Assembly (NCBI RefSeq): GCF_000340565.2
Contig: NZ_CP007203.1
Span: forward strand, 337,815-372,888
Length of the DNA stretch: 35,074 bases
Direction: 5' to 3'
From: Nodularia spumigena CCY9414
Lineage (GTDB): Bacteria > Cyanobacteriota > Cyanobacteriia > Cyanobacteriales > Nostocaceae
This document shows positions 1,878-4,245 of this stretch, piece by piece. The translations under genes were made by a program, and so were the position numbers. Position 1 is the stretch's first letter, and the number at the start of each line of letters is the position of its first letter. Below the pieces are notes generated by a model. The model was given only the letters and a program-made list of their open reading frames with translations, was not told the DNA's origin and searched no databases.

Positions 1878-2318
1878 TTAGCTAAGTAAATCTAATTTAC
1901 ATTCAAGTGCTTTTTTTTGCATGGTTTTAAATATATTAAAAAATCCATTCGCACGGGAAGGTGTCAGACTGACATTTAAACCTGTTTCTTGAATAAAATC
2001 TGGGGTGAGTTGCACAATTTCCGTAGGAGTTAGTCCATTTAAGCCTTCCACTAAAAGCCCTACTAATCCTTTTGTCAACTGGGAATCGGAATCGCCTTGG
2101 TATACAACTTTACCATCATCCAGGGCTGCGGTGATATAAACCTGAGATACACAGCCAGGAACTTTGTTTTCTGGTACTTTGCCAGTTTCTGGGAACTCCT
2201 TCAGCTTCTGAGCATACCAGATTAATTGTTCGTAGCGCCGCTTCGGTTCTGTAGCACGTTGGAAGCGCTGGACGATTTTAGCGAGAGCAGGTGGCAAAGA
2301 ATCGATAATTGAGGACAT
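1878..2318 (-). CDS. sufE: SufE-family cysteine desulfurase sulfur acceptor
   Basis: SufE accepts persulfide sulfur from the cysteine desulfurase SufS and passes it to the SufBCD scaffold during iron-sulfur cluster assembly in the cytoplasm. The 146-residue product matches the family in length. It has the conserved N-terminal helices (QRFQRATEPKRRYEQLIWYAQKLKEFP), the loop VPGCVSQV carrying acceptor Cys56, and the C-terminal RANGFFNIFKTMQKKA helix. No suf genes are adjacent, so the gene appears to be a stand-alone unit. Its 3' end is followed by a dispersed palindrome that may act as terminator. Identification is firm; the specific partner desulfurase is not visible in this window. Confidence 0.93.
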   Translation of the reverse strand: MSSIIDSLPPALAKIVQRFQRATEPKRRYEQLIWYAQKLKEFPETGKVPENKVPGCVSQVYITAALDDGKVVYQGDSDSQLTKGLVGLLVEGLNGLTPTEIVQLTPDFIQETGLNVSLTPSRANGFFNIFKTMQKKALECKLDLLS

Positions 2319-2376
2319 AACAGAAGCTGCAAATAATCAGTCTTACTTTGAGTGTAGATGATTTTGTGAGCAATGG

Positions 2377-2451
2377 GCGATCGCGTAGCGTGTTCGCAGG
2401 ACTTAGCCCCGCCTTTGGCGATGGCGCGGAGCGCCCGTTAAAAGCGATCGC
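2377..2451. repeat. HIP1-flanked GC-rich dispersed repeat
   Basis: A 75-bp GC-rich block bounded by two HIP1 octamers (2377-2384 and 2444-2451). It has an internal hairpin-prone GGCGATGGCGCGGAGCGCC. It interrupts AT-rich surroundings and meets the end of the NOS remnant. Such blocks are common dispersed repeats in Nostoc-type genomes. Confidence 0.65.
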
Positions 2452-2667
2452 GTACTACCATATTATTCCAGGCAATCCGCCCCACACACTTGGAAGCATT
2501 ACGCCAAGCTAACTGCGTTTAGCTGCAAAAAACTTTCCGTACTCCTCAACGGTTTTGAAACCATGCTCTCGCTCTGGTGGCGCACCTATAAGCGGTTCTC
2601 GATATAGAAAATCCTTAACTAAACTTTTCCAGATATTGCCAATTTTATTAGTTAGTACCTTGGAAGA
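2447..2667 (-). pseudogene. Nitric oxide synthase oxygenase domain, frameshifted remnant
   Basis: Minus-strand translation of this apparently empty spacer gives a coherent peptide. From 2667 one frame reads KVLTNKIGNIWKSLVKDFLY and continues to KFFAAKRS, then TAG (2509-2511). One base out of frame, from 2515, the sequence continues as QLAWRNASKCVGRIAWNN then MVVRDR. Restoring one base near 2514 joins them as FFAAKR-QLAWRNASKCVGRI. The AWRN..(R/K)C(I/V)GRI.W motif is the signature of the NOS oxygenase domain, in which the Cys (TGT, 2486-2488) is the heme thiolate ligand. Homology ends at about 2447, where a GC-rich HIP1 repeat begins. An in-frame TAA lies at 2668-2670. About 70 residues remain of a domain normally over 300. 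Motif identity is strong; the original domain layout is unknown. Confidence 0.75.
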
Positions 2668-2865
2668 TTACGATATACAAACCAGGAAATTTGTGAGATT
2701 TTTCTCGTAAATTTATTTCTAATGGTACAAGACAAATAAATAAACATAATGTAACTATTTAAGAGTAGAGCAATGTGAATTGTGGATATTGCTAAACCCA
2801 TCACTACTTTTAATGACATAAACTCTACTTTTCAATTTGATATTTCAAACAGGAAATAGAATATA
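2668..2865. other. AT-rich leader region of the Nif11 precursor gene
   Basis: No coding signal is seen on either strand. The region is AT-rich and should hold the promoter and 5' leader of the downstream peptide gene. The AGGA at 2851-2854 lies 11 bases before its ATG. I could not assign promoter boxes with confidence. Confidence 0.4.
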
Positions 2866-3099
2866 ATGGCACAGGAAAAAACTGCCCAACTTTTGCAAGC
2901 TGTTAAAGAAGACCAAGCATTACAAGCAAGACTCAAAGCCACAGATAATCCAGAAGCCTTCATCAAGATTGCTAAAGAGTCCGGCTATGACTTTACAGTT
3001 GAAGAACTGGAAGAGGAAATCAGTCAATTGTCGGACGAAGATTTGGCAGCTATTGTCAATCCCGGCTGGGGAACTAGACGGCACATTCACCCTAGATAA
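2866..3099 (+). CDS. Nif11-type leader peptide (putative RiPP precursor)
   Basis: Nif11-like leaders are precursor peptides for ribosomally made, modified natural products. The 77-residue product has the family pattern: a helical N-terminal leader (QLLQAVKEDQALQARLKATD, then PEAFIKIAKESGYDFTVEEL) and an acidic segment ending LSDEDLAAIVNPGW. The usual Gly-Gly cleavage motif is missing. After AIV comes a short basic tail NPGWGTRRHIHPR, with no Cys or Ser and only one Thr, so lanthionine chemistry is unlikely. Trp, two His and three Arg dominate the candidate core. No modification enzyme, protease or transporter gene is adjacent, so it is an orphan, or its enzymes act in trans. The start is supported by AGGA 11 bases upstream. 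Leader assignment is strong; product formation is inference. Confidence 0.82.
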   Translation: MAQEKTAQLLQAVKEDQALQARLKATDNPEAFIKIAKESGYDFTVEELEEEISQLSDEDLAAIVNPGWGTRRHIHPR

Positions 3100-3354: not shown

Positions 3355-4245
3355 GTGTTGAATACCAAACTTAAAAGTCAAGGTAAGCGAATTGCGATTA
3401 TTGGCGAACCAGGTGCAGGAAAAACAACACTGTTACAGCAAATTGCTGATTACGCTTTCTTCCATGCTTCGTTTCAAGAATACTTTGCTGCTATAGTAAT
3501 TGATGATTGGCATTTCTTTCTCAATCATGTTCCCAAAAATCCCAGTCAAGGAACTTATCGCATCTTTGAATCGCAGTGGAAGCAAAGAATATTACTTTGG
3601 TTAGGGCGAGAAGAAGAAAAGCTCAAGCAGCAAAAGCAAAAGTTCATCGATGCTTTAGTTAATTTTAAAGATGGATGTCAAAAATGTTATGAATATCGCG
3701 CCTATTTTTTAGCCGCCGCAGGAATTGCAGAGTTTAGGGATTATTCTAAAGCAGATGAAATAGTAGCGCAAATTCTCAACTTGACAATTAATGGTCTGAG
3801 TTCAATTCAAGAAAAAGTTAGGTCAGCACTGCAACAAACAGACCGGACAAAAGCGATCGCCGCCTTGGTGGAACTGCTGCAATCTCCAACTGTGGATGAC
3901 GACACCCGTTGGCAGGCAGCAGAGAGCTTAGGGAGAATCGGCACAGGTAATGAAAAAGCGATCGCCGCCTTGGTGGAACTGCTGCAATCTCCAACTGTGG
4001 ATGACGACACCCGTTGGCAGGCAGCAGAGAGCTTAGGGAAAATTCTACAGAATAGTAAGAAGCGCTTGGAGGTAGTCAAAATTTTAAGTAGTTATTGGCG
4101 ATTGTATAATGAATCCCACAATTTAGCCTGGAAATGCTCCCAGAATATGCGTTACGCTGATTTCTATCAAGCTTGGCATCAGCATAATGTTGCTACTCGT
4201 GCGATGCGAAGCTTAAAGAAAATCCTCTTTACAAGAATAATTTAA
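3355..4245 (+). pseudogene. Collapsed NACHT/STAND NTPase with HEAT-like repeats
   Basis: Residues 11-27 hold a Walker A P-loop (GEPGAGKTT at 17-25). Residues 35-46 then read FFHASFQEYFAA, a motif that normally closes a NACHT-type domain a few hundred residues after the P-loop. Walker B, sensor and winged-helix parts are therefore missing, which points to a large in-frame internal deletion. The rest is a helical region and HEAT-like repeats (IAALVELLQSP, DTRWQAAESLG), two of them identical at DNA level (see repeat). The usual N-terminal effector domain is absent; the frame opens with GTG directly after dispersed repeats and an in-frame stop at 3322. STAND proteins are often defence or signalling switches. 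This copy cannot hydrolyse ATP in the usual way and is best called a pseudogene, though still open. Confidence 0.65.
3849..4039 (+). repeat. Identical 86-bp tandem HEAT-repeat copies (105-bp period)
   Basis: Bases 3849-3934 and 3954-4039 are identical over 86 bp and offset by 105 bp, that is 35 codons. Each encodes AIAALVELLQSPTVDDDTRW and more of one HEAT-like unit. Identity at silent sites indicates very recent duplication or gene conversion. Each copy contains a HIP1 octamer. Confidence 0.92.

Follow-up and report, generated by a model that had tools for sequence, protein, structure and literature searches.

What does the short spacer between sufE and a Nif11-domain peptide gene hold in Nodularia spumigena CCY9414? 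An initial annotation had proposed that this apparently empty DNA contains the fossil of a nitric oxide synthase (NOS) oxygenase domain. We analysed the window (the whole stretch of 35,074 nucleotides around this spacer) together with the rest of the genome and with related genomes. Our results indicate with high confidence that the spacer carries the last two fragments of a minus-strand NOS gene of the syNOS type, which was probably gained locally between sufE and nif11 and then mostly deleted. The relic amounts to about 150 bases from two distant parts of this large gene (Table 1; the names psaK, sufE and Nif11 are based on Pfam).

Table 1. Features of the sufE-nif11 spacer and its flanks (positions in the window)
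Feature	Position	Strand	Basis or remark
sufE, conserved left flank	1878..2318	minus	PF02657, E 3.1e-41
GC-rich repeat-like element	2376..2443	no strand	HIP1 at left end (2377-2384); adjoins HIP1 2444-2451 on right
HIP1 octamer GCGATCGC	2444..2451	no strand	NOS homology stops exactly at its outer edge
NOS oxygenase-domain remnant with Cys motif, QLAWRNASKCVGRIAWNNMVVRDR	2444..2518	minus	codons 2515-2444
Deletion scar, 8 nt where intact genes have 765 nt	2516..2523	minus	junction comparison with intact genes
NOS pseudoglobin-domain remnant, EPLIGAPPEREHGFKTVEEYGKFFA	2520..2599	minus	codons 2598-2524
Stretch without assigned origin	2600..2671	no strand	weak, unconvincing short-chain dehydrogenase match
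Nif11-domain peptide gene, right flank	2866..3099	plus	PF07862, E 2.8e-17

The peptide QLAWRNASKCVGRIAWNN is present in the minus-strand translation of the window. The Pfam profile NO_synthase (PF02898) matches the codons of the oxygenase piece with an E-value of 2.6e-8 and 33.6 bits, above the gathering cut-off of 22.7, and the match contains the motif WRN..[RK]C.GR in the form WRNASKCVGR, whose Cys we take to be the heme ligand of the NOS oxygenase. A complete oxygenase domain, of ~360 residues in an open frame, is absent here: the match covers profile positions 56-79, that is 24 of 362, and the frame is closed by stops. All 24 residues are identical to those of the intact NOS of Nostoc sp. 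XA010, and none differs from those of a decayed copy in another genome of the family, G405. The DNA of this piece (2518-2444) is 96% identical to the G405 NOS over 75 nt and 96% identical to the XA010 gene over 72 nt, with 2 and 3 differences in 72 nt, respectively.

The second, upstream piece is read in a different minus-strand frame. The best PDB match of the joined peptide is syNOS of Synechococcus sp. PCC 7335 (PDB 9Q05 and 9Q06; PMC6104048, PMC12922734), to which the relic aligns at residues 249-277 and 527-553. According to the structural study (PMC12922734), syNOS has a pseudoglobin (pGlb) at residues 179-339, a globin at 340-473 and the oxygenase at 474-852, and the pseudoglobin insertion 245-263 is poorly defined in density. 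Residues 249-277 lie within the pGlb, and the upstream piece therefore belongs to the pseudoglobin domain. Taken alone this piece is weak in phmmer (15.1 bits, i-Evalue 0.21), a point against our reading; its match falls on the same syNOS chain as the strong oxygenase match. Independent support comes from tblastn with NOS proteins of relatives, which align to the piece at 84% identity with E-values of 3e-9 (L015) and 8e-9 (L019). Its DNA is 89% identical to G405 over 80 nt and 88% identical to XA010 over 74 nt; there are 8 and 10 differences in 75 nt, with four amino-acid changes in each case (21 of 25 residues identical to XA010). The initial annotation had attached a segment FFAAKR to the oxygenase domain: the FFA part is real NOS sequence from the pseudoglobin domain, while 'AKR' at the join showed no NOS homology in the searches made.

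The two pieces are syNOS homologues in the same order and orientation as in an intact gene, with the pseudoglobin segment upstream of the oxygenase, as in a six-domain NOS of the syNOS type. The spacing between the two segments is 765 nt in 20 of the 20 loci readable in one frame, some of which are copies of one another; the other seven of the 27 loci examined (L089, L096, L097, L123, L126, L131 and L146) are decayed or truncated, or did not fit the search pattern. The relic has 8 nt at this place, and the join is therefore a net deletion of ~757 nt, with no clear microhomology seen on comparison with intact genes. The earlier explanation, a single oxygenase stretch of about 70 residues interrupted by one missing base near 2514, consequently has virtually no chance of being correct. 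One base does bring both frames together, an accident of arithmetic, but the upstream piece, even with its own upstream part, has no Pfam match, PF02898 included, and corresponds to pseudoglobin sequence that lies 765 nt farther upstream in an intact gene. The supposed continuous peptide is two pieces plus ~20 residues (2600-2667) for which our searches found no NOS homology.

A search of the whole genome (5,462,271 bases in one contig, 99.77% complete) with PF02898 returned one match only, the relic itself (E 5.2e-7, 30.4 bits). When the full NOS of XA010 (1482 aa) was used as a query, it recovered, besides the two pieces, a single match of 29% identity (query residues 1218-1446), which sits in a separate, reductase-like open frame of 450 aa at 3.65 Mb, by its sequence presumably an ordinary ferredoxin-NADP reductase. 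With this query we found no further NOS pieces in the genome, and none of the globin, flavodoxin, FNR and C2 parts of a syNOS-type NOS; beside the relic there is neither the 5' part of the gene up to the D/E region of the pseudoglobin nor anything after the RDR codons. The two pieces score 58.2 and 50.8 bits in tblastn, as compared with a maximum of 28.5 among 1000 dinucleotide-shuffled versions of 2371-2700. The minus-strand Cys-motif peptide is thus real, and the earlier view of a decayed NOS copy in a genome where no intact one is found holds. A NOS may be present on an unassembled replicon. A plasmid source was considered and set aside: the oxygenase-domain query matched 14 plasmid records, all at less than 60% identity; one of these plasmids, from Nostoc sp. 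C052 (46.7%), is cyanobacterial.

The 3' end of the relic lies, as had been noticed before, on a HIP1 octamer beside the GC-rich element. HIP1 is common in cyanobacteria. Twenty of the 26 NOS loci bearing the Cys motif have the octamer at the RDR codons as well; the six that do not (L132, L135, L144, L145, L147 and L151) count against a HIP1-directed deletion. Matches to the left part of the GC-rich element occur at three other places in the genome: one is 92% identical over 51 nt, and two are 90% identical over 29 nt. The element's right part has no second copy when as many as 3 mismatches are allowed. Judged from these sequences, a deletion between two HIP1 copies could produce the 3' junction, in what is a single case where coincidence is possible. 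On the other side of the relic, positions 2601-2650 resemble a short-chain dehydrogenase (SDR) gene in three genomes (G058, G416 and G191; best E 2.8e-5), by our own reading in the SDR frame. We do not count this A+T-rich stretch as a third, SDR-derived fragment, which is unproven: its background is high, with matches at E <=0.05 in 125 of 388 genomes including that of N. spumigena, ~6 times the expectation. The SDR homologue in N. spumigena itself reaches no more than 76% identity, over 46 nt, and an SDR protein search of the NOS and sufE loci yielded only a 25%-identical SDR in L089.

How the relic came to lie here can be judged from four siblings of the same genus, G444, G455, G292 and G278. 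The sufE flank is 93-95% identical to G444, G292 and G278 over ~500 nt and 88.7% identical to G455 in one longer alignment (1514-2376). The Nif11 gene flank is conserved in G444 and G455; no Nif11 match was found within the stretches read in G292 and G278. Homology to the four siblings stops at 2370-2386 and resumes at 2672 (G455) or 2699 (G444), and positions 2387-2671 are therefore specific to N. spumigena among the genomes compared. PF02898 has no match in the four siblings. The initial annotation had suggested looking in related strains for an intact orthologue between sufE and the adjoining gene; none was found where the locus is readable. Instead, psaK (PF01241) lies between sufE and the Nif11 gene in G444, psaK and ~5 kb with a TonB receptor lie there in G455, and in G292 psaK is 529 bp from sufE; in G278 psaK and sufE are on different contigs. 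N. spumigena has 2 psaK-type genes, as compared with 3 in each of the four siblings. Since three siblings keep psaK beside sufE and N. spumigena does not, the NOS DNA was probably a local gain that was then almost wholly deleted.

Several other features of this region were noted along the way. The psaK beside sufE is missing in N. spumigena (2387-2671), and two divergent psaK-type genes are found at ~724 kb. In G455 a TonB-dependent receptor and frames resembling transporters lie in the sufE-psaK interval (L100:4580-9260), and the sufE spacer may therefore be an insertion hotspot. At 1-1513 of the window and L188:3387-6328, an alpha/beta hydrolase gene that is whole in G444 (PF12697) is interrupted in N. 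spumigena by ~2.94 kb of DNA with two RRXRR-HNH (IscB-like) reading frames in tandem, almost identical to each other; the G444 homology on the two sides of the interruption overlaps by 3 bp, as a short target duplication would. Two near-identical copies of ~85 bp, ~106 bp apart, are visible by eye at 3850-4040 within the frame 3355-4245.

NOS had been described as rare in cyanobacteria, a statement that needs qualifying: PF02898 matches 42 of the 388 sampled genomes of the order, N. spumigena included, but only this one of the five in the genus. Twenty-two of the 51 matches listed are in open frames of at least 1431 aa. The relic DNA itself matches 24 of the 145 genomes of the family, in 21 of them (N. 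spumigena included) through the NOS part. An earlier paper (PMC6104048) reports NOS with a globin in one branch of cyanobacteria and names Nostocales genera with NOS. The relic differs from syNOS in that ~50 of 1468 residues are kept and there is no open frame, and from the XA010 NOS (L090/L153), which is intact, has globin, oxygenase, flavodoxin, FAD and NAD domains in Pfam and lies at another locus, judged by the surrounding reading frames.

Three further NOS copies are plainly decayed, in G405, G191 and G413 (Scytonema sp. NIES-4073). Close inspection covered these three; short frames are also seen in G261, G006, G380, G296, G336 and G367, some of which may be contig ends. Like the relic, the three copies have been cut by large internal deletions; unlike it, they are much larger remnants. 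In G405 a truncated pseudoglobin piece is followed by a DDE transposase gene and an open frame of 457 aa that lacks residues 580-1225. This frame (L089:5198-6568) results from a deletion that, compared with XA010, took out 1986 nt without shifting the reading frame; in it the globin and the start of the oxygenase run straight into the reductase's NAD-binding end. G191 has NOS pieces 512-679 and 966-1469 in two frames, and G413 has residues 439-624 followed by 1375-1482. The Cys motif is kept in all decayed copies compared, but the searches used that piece or PF02898; its presence is therefore no evidence of preferential retention, and the number of decayed copies is a lower bound. G405 and XA010 differ from each other at 2 of 72 nt in the oxygenase segment and 10 of 75 nt in the pseudoglobin segment. 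The distances of the relic are about the same, and it is therefore either young or too short to show drift. As far as the sequence can tell, the damage to the NOS copy came by deletion, not by point mutation.

We propose the following history. The source gene would have had six domains (C2, pseudoglobin, globin, oxygenase, flavodoxin and FNR), and its DNA would have entered this spot after the split from the sampled congeners. A few large deletions would then have removed it. One of them probably ended at the HIP1 octamer, whose 8 bp occur both in the gene and in the repeat next to it, as would be expected of short-homology recombination, and a second, internal one would have proceeded without clear microhomology. 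In the simplest history psaK would have been lost along with the NOS deletion. Gain followed by loss, as the initial annotation had suggested, is the best reading, in an order of events that we infer; loss in the four congeners together with movement of a piece is an alternative. Further observations weigh against our reading: the HIP1 deletion is read from one junction, and NOS is apart from sufE in five of the five genomes in which both could be placed (by ~1 Mb in G356, on different contigs in G229, G370, G394 and G006). The latter would suit an explanation in which the fragments were never part of a whole NOS here and foreign or ectopic DNA was captured as filler in the repair of a break near psaK. 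The spacer is indeed a patchwork of a repeat, two NOS pieces and an unassigned stretch where the siblings have psaK; but the NOS pieces lie on one strand, ordered and placed relative to each other as within a single gene, and simple deletion would need fewer events, which makes filler capture unlikely.

It is far less probable still that a functional element, a small peptide or an RNA, was carved from the NOS and retained. The 24-aa piece is unchanged relative to G405 and XA010, as such an element might be, but the motif is strongly conserved in other copies too and few nucleotide changes have accrued, so the absence of amino-acid change says little. Each piece is bounded by stop codons in its own frame, and the one Rfam match in 2200-3000 (E 0.77, 14.3 bits) is far below its gathering score of 50. 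NO formation from arginine by the relic would not be expected, there being no open gene. We find no support for a present function, and the remains of the NOS gene are non-coding and presumably neutral.

The relic is an ordinary pseudogene remnant of the known NOS family, although it clearly marks an end stage of the repeated decay of NOS; our search of a library of CC-licensed papers brought up no evident publication on NOS pseudogenes of cyanobacteria. A broader idea, which we rate as rather improbable, is that Nostocaceae have repeatedly gained and discarded syNOS-type NOS, with loss through large deletions of which some end at intragenic HIP1 sites, so that HIP1 would be a break or recombination point shaping gene loss. 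NOS remnants occur in four genera of the family at different stages of decay (N. spumigena, G405, G191 and G413). These results suggest that recent loss contributes to the patchy distribution of NOS among cyanobacteria, and short NOS matches in genome surveys can be relics.
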